This document shows, in pieces, positions 302-54,771 of a stretch of 64,000 bases of DNA. The stretch covers positions 2,862,261 through 2,926,260 of the forward strand of contig NZ_CP012373.2 of NCBI RefSeq assembly GCF_001305575.3, in the 5' to 3' direction. Under the pieces are notes generated by a model that worked only from the letters and a program-made list of their open reading frames with translations, did not search any database and was not told the DNA's origin. The stretch is from Beggiatoa leptomitoformis (lineage in GTDB: Bacteria; Pseudomonadota; Gammaproteobacteria; Beggiatoales; Beggiatoaceae). Within the stretch, counting starts at the first letter, position 1. Every line of letters begins with the position of its first letter. The position numbers and the translations under genes were made by a program.

Positions 302-2698
302 TTAACGTTTTCGAGCGTTTGCCATTGCCTCTGCTAAGGCAGTACCCAACGCAGTGGGTGGCTGTGCAACGGCTTGTTTAGCAGGTTTTGCGGGTTTACT
401 GTCTTTTTGAACAGGTTTATGAGCGGGTGCTGTAGGCTTAGTCCGCGAATCGCTGTTCGCACTTTTGGGTTTTTCATCCTTGGGTAAGGATGCACTAATA
501 GCGGAATCTCGTCCTGAATCATTCAAACGCATGGTTAAAGCCACCCGTTTACGTGCTAAATCAATTTCTAAGACTTTCACTTTAACCACATCACCCGCTT
601 TAACCACTTCGCGCGGGTCTTTGATAAAGTTATTAGACAGTGCTGAAATATGCACTAATCCATCTTGATGCACGCCAATGTCAACAAATGCACCAAAATT
701 CGTTACATTTGTTACCACGCCTTCTAGTACCATATCAACTTTTAAATCGGCAAGAGTTTCCACACCTTCTTTAAATTCAGCGGTTTTAAATTCTGGACGT
801 GGGTCACGTCCCGGTTTTTCTAGCTCGTGTAATATATCGGTAATTGTTGGAATACCAAATTTATCATCTGTGAAGTCCTGTGGTTTTAGATGACGAATAA
901 ACGGCACATCACCGATTAAATTTTTAACGGGACGACTCGTTTTTGCCACAATGCGTTCAATTACAGGATAGGCTTCAGGGTGAACAGTGGATGCATCTAA
1001 AGGATTTTCACCATTCATCACCCGCAAAAAGCCTGCAGCTTGTTCAAATGTTTTTTCACCAAAACGGGGAATTTTGCGTAACATGTCCCGATTGGTGAAT
1101 GAACCGTGTTCATCACGGAACGCCACAATATTTTTTGCTAAACCTGCGTTTAAGCCAGATACCCGACTGAGTAACGGCACGGATGCGGTATTCACATCAA
1201 CGCCTACAGCATTTACGCAATCCTCGACCACTGCATCTAGGGTGCGGGCAAGTTGTGTTTGATTAACATCATGTTGGTATTGACCAACGCCGATGGATTT
1301 CGGCTCAATTTTTACCAATTCGGCTAATGGGTCTTGTAAGCGACGCGCAATAGAAACTGCACCGCGAATGGTGACATCTAAATCAGGAAATTCATTAGCC
1401 GCTAATTCGGACGCGGAATAAACGGAAGCACCCGCTTCAGACACAACAATTTTAGTCAAGCGCAATTCAGGATGTGCTTTGATTAAATCCATCGCTAAAC
1501 GGTCAGTTTCACGTGAGGCAGTACCATTGCCGATGCTGATTAATTCAACATTATATTTTTCTGCTAGTTTAGCAAGAATTGCCAGTGATTCCGTCCATTG
1601 ATTTTTTGGCGGATGGGGATAAATTGCTGTGTGGTCAACTAATTTACCTGTGTTATCAACAATGGCAACTTTTACCCCTGTCCGTAATCCGGGGTCTAGC
1701 CCCATTGTTGCGCGTTGTCCTGCGGGTGCAGCAAGTAATAGGTCATTTAAATTTTGTGAAAAAACCTTAATCGCTTCTGTTTCAGCCGTTTCACGTAGCC
1801 GCATCAACAGCTCGACATCTAAACTTAAACGAACTTTAAATCGCCATGTCCAACGTACAGTTTCTTGTAACCATTTGTCTGCCATACGGCTTTGGTCAGC
1901 AATTTGGTAATGTTGGGCAATCATCGCTTCACACGCATTTAATTGACGACTAGCGGGCGTGGTCGCTTCTTCCTCTTCAGTTAAGGGGAGGGTTAGTTGT
2001 AAAAAGCCTTCGTTGCGTCCACGAAATAGGGCTAAGGCACGGTGAGAGGGGATTTCTTTGAGGGGTTCACGATAATCAAAATAATCAGAAAATTTTGCCC
2101 CTTCCGTCTGCTTGCCTTCTATAACTTTGGAGGTTAGCTTGATATTTTCCCACATGAATATCCGCAGTTTACCCAATAATTCGGCATCTTCGGAAAATTG
2201 TTCCATCAAGATTTGTCGCGCGCCATCTAGGGCTTGTTTGGTATCGTTAATACCTTTTTCAGCATTGATAAAAGTTGCGGCGATGATTTCGGGGTCTTGC
2301 GTTGGATTTTGCCAAAGCGTATGCGCGAGGGGTTCAAGTCCTGCTTCTTTAGCAATTTGGGCTTTGGTGCGACGTTTGGGCTTGTAAGGTAAATACAAGT
2401 CTTCTAAACGGGTTTTGGTATCAGCTTCTAAAATGGCTTGTTCTAATTCAGGTGTGAGCTTGTCTTGTTCACGAATACTATTGAGTATCGCAGTACGGCG
2501 TTCATCCATTTCACGCAGATACCGTAACCGTTCCTCTAGGGTGCGTAATTGAGTATCATCCAAGCCACCCGTTAATTCTTTACGGTAACGGGAGATAAAC
2601 GGCACGGTCGCGCCGTCATCTAATAAAGCGATAGCCGCTTGTACTTGACGTTCTTGCACACCGAGTTCTTCGGCAATACGTTCGGCAATAGTCTTCAT
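302..2698 (-). CDS. tex: Tex family RNA-binding transcription accessory protein
   Basis: At 798 residues this has the usual Tex length and full domain order: a helical N-terminal Tex domain that opens [14 protein letters not shown], a YqgF/RuvC-like fold in the middle ([17 protein letters not shown]), a helix-hairpin-helix region ([15 protein letters not shown], then [16 protein letters not shown]), and a C-terminal S1 domain ([20 protein letters not shown]). Tex is a cytoplasmic nucleic-acid-binding protein linked to transcription and stress fitness; its exact biochemical role is unsettled. The tail after the S1 domain is rich in Lys, Pro and Ala and looks disordered, a common lineage-specific extension. 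The ATG at 2696-2698 is the natural start. The gene stands alone, with about 260 bases separating it from the fimX-like gene upstream. Confidence 0.95.
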
Positions 2699-49727: not shown

Positions 49728-50717
49728 CTAATGTCTTAAGTGTTTTGATAATTGTGTAGCACTTGCTGTTAAAAATCCAATGCCATAACTCAGGTGCAAT
49801 GTGATAAAAACCAAGGCGACTAAGCCAAACAATGATAGGGTTGTTTTATACGTTGTTTGCAGGGTAAAAATAGTGAGCGCGAATAGATAGCTAACAATAA
49901 CAGGTAATAATAGGTATAACCCCAAGCCATGATAAAAGCTGCTTAGTATGCCTATTAATAAACTGAGAACGAATAATGCGGGAATCAGGTGACGAATCGA
50001 TGTTGGTAGGGTGTGTTTGCGAATCACGCCAAATTTCCCATAGCCGTATTGAAAGTATTGTCGCCACAGTTTTTTTAAAGAATCTCGTGGATAGTAATAA
50101 GATTGAATTGCAGCCGTTAGATAAATTTTCCCTCCTTGTTTTATAAGGCGATAATTTAATTCATCATCTTCTGCACCAATCAAATTTTCATCATAATAAC
50201 CAATCGTAGTAAATACTTGGCGACGATATGCACCTAAATAAACGGTGTCGACATAGCCTTCTTGGTCGGTGTAATGAAATTGTGAATTTCCCACGCCAAA
50301 TAGGGATGTTGTCGCAAGTGCAATGGCTTGTGCAACGCGGTTTGTCGCTTTAATACGAATATGACCACCAACATTGTCTGCCCCTGTTTTGTCTAAGGCA
50401 GCAACACATTGTCTTATATAATCAGGCGCATATTCTGTATGACTATCCATACGAATTAAGTAATCCCCTTGTGCTATTTGAATCGCCATGTTCAAACTGC
50501 TAGGCGCGCTGCGGCGTGGATTGCTCAAAACGGTTAATTTAGGTATTTGTTGTTGATACGCTTTTAGTAGGCTGAAAGAAGTATCGGTGGAATGCCCATC
50601 CACCGCGATAATATCTATTGCCGCTTGTGGATAATCTTGTTGTTGAATAGATTGAAAAAGCAGGGGAAGAAACGATGCTTCGTTATAGACAGGGATTAAA
50701 AGGCTAACGGTTTTCAT
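49728..50717 (-). CDS. GT2 glycosyltransferase with C-terminal membrane helices
   Basis: 329 residues. GT-A fold: 'LIPVYNEASFLPLLFQSIQQ' opens, 'AVDGHSTD' and 'LIRMDSHTEYAPDYI' supply the nucleotide-sugar and metal sites (DSH in place of DxD), and 'LIGAEDDELNYRLIKQGGKI' is the ED/Q-R-like acceptor region. Three or four membrane helices (about 245-320) end the protein. The layout is that of ExoA/succinoglycan-type transferases that extend lipid-linked sugars. The substrate is unknown. The start ATG overlaps the stop of the cyclase gene by 4 bases (ATGA), implying coupled translation with a cAMP-forming enzyme, which is odd for an envelope sugar gene. Confidence 0.9.
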   Translation of the reverse strand: MKTVSLLIPVYNEASFLPLLFQSIQQQDYPQAAIDIIAVDGHSTDTSFSLLKAYQQQIPKLTVLSNPRRSAPSSLNMAIQIAQGDYLIRMDSHTEYAPDYIRQCVAALDKTGADNVGGHIRIKATNRVAQAIALATTSLFGVGNSQFHYTDQEGYVDTVYLGAYRRQVFTTIGYYDENLIGAEDDELNYRLIKQGGKIYLTAAIQSYYYPRDSLKKLWRQYFQYGYGKFGVIRKHTLPTSIRHLIPALFVLSLLIGILSSFYHGLGLYLLLPVIVSYLFALTIFTLQTTYKTTLSLFGLVALVFITLHLSYGIGFLTASATQLSKHLRH

Positions 50718-51790
50718 GTTGTTTGCCGTCCGAGTAAAAAATAGGTTTGCATTTCTCCTTTGCCTTTTATGTCTAATGTTCCACGTGATTCAAATGTAAA
50801 TTGGGTGTGCAGTTCTTGATAAATTGCATCGGATACGTGGATTTTATCTGGCAAACTGTGCGATTCCATGCGACTGGCGGTATTAACGGTATCGCCCCAT
50901 AAATCGTAGATAAATTTTTTCTGTCCAATCACGCCCGCAACAACCGCTCCCGAATGGAAGCCTATACGTAACTGTAAACTGCGTCCTGTTTCTTGGTTAA
51001 ATAAATGAATTTCATGCAACATTTCCAATGCCATTTCTGCCATATTCACAGAATGATGTGGCAACGCATGAGGAATTCCTCCCACAACCATATAGGCATC
51101 ACCAATCGTTTTAATTTTTTCTAAATCATATTTTTCTACTAAACGGTCAAAACGACAGAAAATATTATCTAATAAGCCAACTAATCCTTCAGGTGAGATG
51201 CTGGCGGAAAGTTTGGTAAAACCAACTAAATCAGCAAATAATACGGTTGCATTGGGATAACTATCGGCAATGATATTCGTGCCTTCTTTTAGGCGTTGCG
51301 CCACAAGATGGGGCAAAATATTAAGCAATAATCGTTCTGACTTGGCTTTTTCCGCCGCTAAAGCACGATAAGCAGCGACTAATTCATGATTTTTTTCTGA
51401 TAATTGAATATTTTGTAAATGTTCTATTTCTCGTTGTTGCACAATAGCCAGTAGCCGAAATAGTCGTAATATACGGACAAAACGAAGAAAAATAGCAAAA
51501 TGGGTACTGGGTAATAGGTAAACGGCAACGAGTAAAAAATCAAAAACATTCCATTTGTCTAGAAAAAACTGTCCAAATTGTCGTCCATACGTCCCGATAC
51601 GAATGATAATTTCTATTAAAAAAATGATAAAAATAATATGGTCTAACCAATAAAAAAGATGCCCGTAACTGTTAAGCAGCTCGGGATAACCTTCTAAGCA
51701 GACAAGAAAAACGGAAAAAAAGATAGTACCAATAATAAAGTTTTGAAATTCTTTAGTACGTTCAATTTTTCGACAGAACTCAACCAGCAT
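50714..51790 (-). CDS. Voltage-sensor-like domain fused to class III adenylate cyclase
   Basis: 358 residues. Residues about 18-118 form four helices of the ion-channel voltage-sensor type: S2 ending 'IFLIEIIIRIG' (E60, R64), S3 'KWNVFDFLLV' (N81, D84) and S4 'FLRFVRILRLFRLLAI' with Arg at 103, 106, 109 and 112, every third residue. No pore helices follow. A coiled-coil (about 120-165), 'LLLNILPHLVAQRLKEG', leads to the class III cyclase domain (about 180-355): metal Asp187 and Asp231, adenine pair Lys227/Asp296, and transition-state Asn303/Arg307. The K/D pair points to ATP rather than GTP. Membrane-potential control of cAMP is inferred. It overlaps the glycosyltransferase by 4 bases. Confidence 0.88.
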   Translation of the reverse strand: MLVEFCRKIERTKEFQNFIIGTIFFSVFLVCLEGYPELLNSYGHLFYWLDHIIFIIFLIEIIIRIGTYGRQFGQFFLDKWNVFDFLLVAVYLLPSTHFAIFLRFVRILRLFRLLAIVQQREIEHLQNIQLSEKNHELVAAYRALAAEKAKSERLLLNILPHLVAQRLKEGTNIIADSYPNATVLFADLVGFTKLSASISPEGLVGLLDNIFCRFDRLVEKYDLEKIKTIGDAYMVVGGIPHALPHHSVNMAEMALEMLHEIHLFNQETGRSLQLRIGFHSGAVVAGVIGQKKFIYDLWGDTVNTASRMESHSLPDKIHVSDAIYQELHTQFTFESRGTLDIKGKGEMQTYFLLGRQTT

Positions 51791-51977
51791 TTCTTGTCCT
51801 TTGTCTCAGTCGTTTATAATGGGAAAGAGATGAATAGGGATTTATTATCGCTGTAGTACGATTATCGATACGATAAATATTACCCGTTGTTTCCAGCCAT
51901 TTTTTAATCTAAAGAAAGCATGGAAACATCATTCAGTTTCTAGGATATTACCGAAGTAATCCTGATGTTGTACAGTT

Positions 51978-53811: not shown

Positions 53812-54771
53812 TCATTTATTTCCAGAGGTTGCTACCAATTTTGTTTCCAACCGCTCGATTGCTTTTTTCTCCCGTTCCAATGCTCCCTCCGCCTTGATAA
53901 TACGTGTACGTAAGGTATTTGCTTCACCTTTAATAAAGGTATTCTCTTGTTCTAATTTTGCAATCGTTTCTCTGTAAACTTTTTCTTGTGTTTCGGCGCG
54001 TGTTGTCACTGCAATGAGTTTCTTTTCTGTTTCAATGCGTGCTTTTTCTTCAGTATTGCGTGCTTCACGAAACTCTTGTTTGTCTTCTTTCAAGACTTTA
54101 ACATCGCTTTCTAATTTGCGTGTGGTTTCACGTAATTCTTGCGTTAATGCCTCTGCAACAGCGGATTTAGTTTGCTCAAGTTTCAGTTGTTTCCAACTTT
54201 GTTCAGCTTCTAACGTAGCGGTATTTAACGTTTTTTCTAACCGTTCCCGATTACGTTGTTGTACGGTCACTTCCTCGCGCAGATTACGTAAATCTGTTTG
54301 GTCTTGTTGACTTTGATAAACAACCTCATGCAGACGTTTTTGCGAGACTTCGATAGTTTCGCGCGCTCGGCCTAGCTCTTCACATAAGTTTTTAATCTCA
54401 TGTTCTTGCTTATCTACTTTTTCTTGTAAAATAGCAAGTTGACTGTGTGCTGTATTCAGTTCACCAATTTCACGATCCAAGTCAATTTGTAATGACTTAT
54501 TTTCTTTAGTGATATTGTCTATCCGTGACAATGCTTGTTGCAATTCTATATTAATCTTCTCTACTTGTTGCAAGGCATCTTGTTTTTGCGCTAAAACCTC
54601 TTTTTCAACCAATGCTGAGGCATCGCGAATTTTGCAAATTTCGGTATATGCAATAGATTGTGCCACTTGCCAGACTGCTTGCACGGCTTCACTGCCAATG
54701 CGTTGAATCTCATCAGGCACTTTTATAGGCGTTTCTTCGATTAAGGATAAGCTAATTTTTTTATCAGACAT
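53812..54771 (-). CDS. Long coiled-coil protein, function unknown
   Basis: 319 residues, cytoplasmic, with no signal peptide. Residues about 20-45 form a short helical head ('IGSEAVQAVWQVAQSIAY'), followed by about 250 residues of heptad-rich coiled coil from 'VEKEVLAQKQDALQQVEKI' to near the C-terminus, rich in Glu, Lys, Gln and Arg. The head-plus-coil layout recalls KfrA-type plasmid DNA-binding proteins, but the head lacks a clear helix-turn-helix and the match is weak. The gene sits alone with the small lipoprotein gene 30 bases downstream. Possibly a structural or scaffolding protein. Confidence 0.65.
   Translation of the reverse strand: MSDKKISLSLIEETPIKVPDEIQRIGSEAVQAVWQVAQSIAYTEICKIRDASALVEKEVLAQKQDALQQVEKINIELQQALSRIDNITKENKSLQIDLDREIGELNTAHSQLAILQEKVDKQEHEIKNLCEELGRARETIEVSQKRLHEVVYQSQQDQTDLRNLREEVTVQQRNRERLEKTLNTATLEAEQSWKQLKLEQTKSAVAEALTQELRETTRKLESDVKVLKEDKQEFREARNTEEKARIETEKKLIAVTTRAETQEKVYRETIAKLEQENTFIKGEANTLRTRIIKAEGALEREKKAIERLETKLVATSGNK

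Follow-up and report, generated by a model that had tools for sequence, protein, structure and literature searches.

Proteins that join a voltage sensor to cyclic AMP synthesis have been described as channel-cyclases with a K-channel pore in ciliates (Paramecium, Tetrahymena) and apicomplexans (Plasmodium) (PMC10651576 and PMC4588038), the primary sources being Weber 2004 and Schultz 1992 (as cited in PMC10651576 and PMC12414865). According to a 2025 review, voltage or channel cyclases appear restricted to protozoans, and mammalian tmACs are without S4-type sequences (PMC12414865); the available text of a 2024 review names channels, exchanger/transporters and phosphatases as voltage-regulated, with no bacterial enzyme among them (PMC13095418). 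Among the means by which bacteria might sense their membrane potential, channels are known, but the literature searched, which consisted mostly of non-subscription papers, yielded no bacterial enzyme under direct voltage control and no description of a bacterial voltage-sensing cyclase or kinase.

The window (the whole stretch of DNA that was analysed, 64,000 nucleotides) comes from the Beggiatoa leptomitoformis genome, a single contig of 4,265,317 bases, and encodes a 358-residue protein in which an S1–S4 voltage-sensor domain (VSD) of the bacterial sodium channel (BacNav) type is fused, with no intervening pore, to a class III adenylate cyclase. The features of the locus are as follows.

49728–50717, minus strand: family 2 glycosyltransferase gene, with a 4-base overlap with the cyclase stop
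50714–51790, minus strand: predicted voltage-sensor adenylate cyclase ORF, 358 residues, ATG start, stop at 50714–50716
50732–51268, minus strand: predicted class IIIa adenylate cyclase catalytic domain, residues 175–353 (PF00211, AC9 alignment)
51269–51430, minus strand: helical linker or cyclase transducing coiled coil, residues 121–174, continuous with S4 in the model
51431–51790, minus strand: voltage-sensor domain S1–S4, residues 1–120 (PF00520, BacNav match, model and fold match)
51431–51499, minus strand: S4, residues 98–120, with R103, R106, R109 and R112 (model; invariant in six VSDs)
51518–51556, minus strand: S3 helix, residues 79–91, with N81 and D84 (model; invariant in six VSDs)
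51587–51685, minus strand: S1–S2 loop helix and S2, residues 36–68, with F57, E60 and R64 (model; invariant in six VSDs)
51692–51754, minus strand: S1 helix, residues 13–33 (model)
51797–51800, minus strand: AGGA, Shine-Dalgarno-like, 6 nt upstream of the cyclase ATG (sequence)

An ORF at 50714–51790 had been proposed in an earlier note on this DNA, which gave no strand; the frame is present on the minus strand and ends in TGA, and the plus strand of the same interval carries many stops throughout. The overlap with a glycosyltransferase gene that the note had pointed out is real, the four bases ATGA at 50714–50717 being common to the end of the cyclase gene and the start of its neighbour.

Residues 1–120 are confirmed, by sequence and modelled fold, as a BacNav-type S1–S4 voltage-sensor domain, for which a response to voltage is predicted. 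The Ion_trans family (PF00520, Pfam) matches at 6e-14 over profile positions 4–113 of 241, corresponding to the S1–S4 part only, and residues 1–124 match solved bacterial sodium channels in phmmer searches (4bgn at 2.3e-14, NaChBac at 2.9e-13, 6yz2 at 1e-12 and NavAb-type entries at 2e-12), values well beyond chance. In the BacNav alignment R103, R106, R109 and R112, at every third residue, fall on the S4 arginines; E60, N81 and D84 on the acidic or Asn residues of S2 and S3; and F57 on the charge-transfer Phe of S2. A model of residues 1–168 (pLDDT 88.7) superposes on NavAb with Z 15.1 and an rmsd of 2.3 over 116 residues, and NavAb entries rank first in a Foldseek search; since the alignment used for the model included channel homologues, the sequence matches constitute the more independent evidence. 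A full-length model is of low confidence (pLDDT 66.7) and supports no claim. The ORF contains neither S5–P–S6 nor a TLExW-type filter after S4, and the cyclase follows directly, S4 and the linker forming one helix in the VSD model (residues 98–167). Elsewhere in the genome there is no second S1–S4 match; the single further Ion_trans match scores weakly and is confined to a pore region.

The cyclase half matches Guanylate_cyc (PF00211) at 3.3e-64 over residues 175–353, and there is a match at 4e-61 to membrane cyclases of the Rv1625c/Cya-type class IIIa (PDB 7yz9 and 7yzi, and AC9). In the alignment with AC9, the metal-binding residues D187 and D231 match its C1 half, and K227 and D296 (purine) and N303 and R307 (transition state) its C2 half; in class III cyclases such a Lys/Asp pair denotes ATP rather than GTP. 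Because C1-type and C2-type residues occur in one chain, the pattern is that expected for a homodimer with two active sites, and the catalytic domain, complete by its residues, is expected to make cAMP as such a homodimer. The linker resembles the coiled-coil end of HNOBA (PF07701, 8e-5, just under its cut-off), and the distance from the fourth S4 arginine to the motif SERLLLNILP changes by heptads among four of the five cyclases (32, 39, 39 and 46 residues), the fifth, with 35, falling outside this step; these lengths fit coupling via coiled-coil register, with so few members only suggestively. The earlier note had named E60, R64, N81, D84 and the four S4 arginines as marks of a voltage sensor without pore helices, and a coiled coil leading to a cyclase with D187, K227, D296, N303 and R307; all of these residues lie at the positions given, D231 is the second metal Asp, and the anticipated fold and helical connection are both obtained in the model.

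Among described systems, NaChBac, NavAb and NavMs share with this protein an S1–S4 unit with R1–R4 and a charge-transfer centre, but continue into S5–P–S6 with a TLExW filter, where the Beggiatoa protein has a cyclase instead. The protozoan channel-cyclases likewise combine an S4-type sensor with a class III adenylyl cyclase in a single polypeptide and link voltage to cAMP, a comparison that for the Beggiatoa protein extends to manner of working only: they are eukaryotic and possess a K+ pore, whereas the protein described here is bacterial, lacks S5–S6 and carries a BacNav-type VSD. In Rv1625c/Cya and AC9 the last membrane helix leads, as here, through a helical domain into a catalytic domain with the same catalytic residues, although Rv1625c/Cya has a six-helix anchor without S4 charges in contrast to the four-helix voltage sensor of Beggiatoa. 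Hv1 and TMEM266, a type described as eukaryotic only in PMC13095418, also have a pore-less VSD with S4 running into a coiled coil and are expected to be dimeric; they have no enzyme, however, and Hv1 conducts protons and has a mid-S1 Asp that the Beggiatoa protein lacks. Ci-VSP has, as here, a pore-less VSD on a cytosolic enzyme, but is an animal phosphoinositide phosphatase with a different linker, whereas this protein has an S4-continuous coiled coil and an obligate dimeric catalytic domain; the part following the VSD has no Pfam match to a PTEN-like phosphatase domain, the enzyme being a class III cyclase. The analogy with voltage-sensing phosphatases drawn previously thus stands for the sensor-plus-enzyme logic, but the S4–coiled-coil layout is closer to Hv1/TMEM266 and mycobacterial Cya. 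Neither Ci-VSP nor Hv1 is among the 50 fold matches listed; as channel entries fill that list, their absence from it excludes nothing.

Four further genomes of the family encode the same VSD–cyclase architecture (88, 57, 56 and 54% identity), with the gating and catalytic residues named above invariant in all five proteins. A sixth protein, from a sister genus, carries the same VSD (42% identity to that of the window) on HisKA and HATPase_c domains, and F57, E60, R64, N81, D84 and the four S4 arginines are invariant in all six VSDs. This candidate voltage-sensing histidine kinase is encoded at L068:5242–6396 (plus strand, genome G016), and no response regulator gene adjoins it in the surrounding stretch of L068. 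Taken with the cyclases, the kinase fusion suggests from its sequence that the sensor can move between outputs.

Searches for the VSD covered about 1,700 genomes from the family, class and phylum of Beggiatoa and from four further phyla, the latter reached via cyanobacterial, Bacteroidota, spirochaete and myxobacterial loci. More than 100 frames were among the best matches; leaving aside a few that were truncated or broken, the six were alone in lacking a pore of Nav or K type; other long-frame matches to the VSD had pores too, and rarer VSD fusions may lie outside the best matches of each search. With a profile built from the six VSDs, those six score between 1e-53 and 1e-60, the next best matches being channels at 4e-43 or weaker, and a plasmid collection held no record covering 80% of the query. 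In a further scan, the candidates from Myxococcales, Verrucomicrobia and Treponema that reached furthest N-terminally were rejected, being cyclases whose N-terminal part is a different membrane anchor, a response-regulator receiver or a repeat-type periplasmic sensor; that scan depended on exact matches to short peptide patterns, and its low sensitivity means that it says little on distribution. Two unusual channel loci were also observed. L228:1392–3701 (minus strand, Bacteroidota genome G1229) encodes an unusual channel architecture, in which a Nav-type VSD and pore precede some 500 residues that by eye have a tandem RCK/TrkA-type look, and genome G018 has two adjoining Nav-type channel frames (L099:218–907 and 1438–2298, plus strand), the first of which, its frame being lost after S4, has the look of a damaged copy of the second.

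In a tree with Nav-type channels only, the six VSDs occupy one side of a branch with support 97/98, whereas they form a grade when distant K channels are added; a single origin rests on the former sampling and is, from these sequences, likely rather than certain. Grouping of the five cyclase domains is weak (93/71). The simplest history would comprise one loss of a BacNav-like pore within the family, a cyclase fusion, and a single switch of output between cyclase and kinase. A comparison of the window gene with its sister-species orthologue gives dN values of 0.042 for the VSD, 0.120 for the linker and 0.094 for the cyclase, dS being close to 1 or higher; in S4, dN is 0 between the sister species, though codons differ. 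The VSD is the most conserved part of the protein, purifying selection acting on it more strongly than on the cyclase. The conservation of the VSD, its invariant charges and the kinase fusion together point to a working, swappable voltage input and not a relic. The family profiles, the fold match, the charges kept in orthologues, the kinase fusion and purifying selection all support reading the protein as an adenylate cyclase to which a pore-less S1–S4 voltage sensor has been fused.

A more conservative interpretation would see in S1–S4 a mere membrane anchor or dimerising scaffold derived from a channel, attached to a cyclase that is constitutive or otherwise regulated, and channel VSDs can indeed persist as structural modules. 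The membrane part of most bacterial cyclases is, moreover, of unknown role according to PMC12414865. A plain anchor would, however, have no need of four S4 arginines and all their counter-charges, which are kept across 54–88% identity; nor would it account for conservation that is stronger in the VSD than in the catalytic domain or for the same VSD on a kinase, and the anchor interpretation is considered unlikely. S1–S4 might alternatively sense lipid, ion, pH or membrane tension, with the charges serving that purpose, and VSDs do bind lipids. Responses to lipids are described for the membrane domains of Rv1625c and mammalian cyclases in PMC12505454 and PMC11606603, but the residues kept here, including the charge-transfer Phe and the spacing of the S4 arginines, are those that define BacNav voltage sensing, and a stimulus other than voltage appears improbable.

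Ion conduction by the VSD itself, with the cyclase answering local ion flux or pH, has a precedent in Hv1, a pore-less, proton-conducting VSD that dimerises via its S4 coiled coil (PMC13095418). The mid-S1 Asp described there as needed for proton selectivity in Hv1 is absent from all six members, however, an invariant Ser26 occupying the position as judged without direct alignment to Hv1, and wild-type VSPs, which are pore-less too, are without proton conduction in the same text; conduction of protons or cations is accordingly held to be very unlikely. An assembly or annotation artefact fusing two unrelated genes is given almost no weight: the protein is a single ORF in a closed genome, purifying selection is strong across the junction, and the artefact reading is refuted because four orthologues (54–88% identity) share the domain order.

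Voltage-gated cAMP synthesis, in which movement of S4 through the coiled coil sets the output of the cyclase dimer, is the probable reading by sequence and model, and the following steps are envisaged. The six-helix cyclase anchor would have been replaced by the VSD of a sodium-channel-type protein after pore loss, and two copies would pair via the coiled coil that extends S4. The catalytic dimer of Rv1625c/Cya is guided by a coiled coil that continues the last membrane helix (PMC9433096), and S4 would hold the place of that helix here. A change in membrane potential would move S4 along its axis; in NavAb, S4 travels about two helical turns on passing from the resting to the activated state (PMC13095418), and a comparable movement would shift or rotate the coiled coil, resetting both catalytic domains and altering cAMP output. 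The most likely stimulus would be loss of energisation, with a drop in membrane potential; whether cAMP output would rise or fall in response is not readable from sequence. The genome encodes seven cNMP-binding-domain matches, one of them a CRP-like protein (L233) that is encoded elsewhere in the genome and carries the canonical cAMP-pocket motif FGEIALLDGSPRTA, so that a receiver for cAMP is available, and cAMP could act via this protein. It also has 16 class III cyclase catalytic-domain matches in 4.27 Mb, as a result of which any cAMP pool may be shared and a specific role for the VSD–cyclase is hard to infer; the members of this architecture that are cyclases number five, all in one family.

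If correct, membrane potential would be read out directly by second messenger and by phosphorylation, with the VSD–cyclase linking potential to cAMP in one step, and bacteria would turn voltage into a chemical signal. Voltage-controlled enzymes are already known, a modular prokaryotic voltage input being a plausible, bolder reading; the chances are somewhat better than even that this pore-less input evolved in the family as a dedicated domain, plugged into both cAMP synthesis and a histidine-kinase phosphorelay, and gives the first voltage-controlled enzymes known from prokaryotes. The protein would also offer a small, pore-free system for studies of S4-driven coiled coils, and might serve as a tool for controlling cAMP by voltage.

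The earlier suggestion of an envelope response, drawn from the overlapping glycosyltransferase gene, is not supported: that neighbour is kept in the sister species only, and beside the other three orthologues there is no glycosyltransferase, their neighbours being unrelated. The arrangement therefore represents at most a genus-level operon, and the link to the cyclase gene is weak. Elsewhere in the window, 53812–54771 (minus strand) encodes a 319-residue, coiled-coil-rich protein with no Pfam match at 0.001, whose N-terminus recalls KfrA-type DNA-binding proteins.
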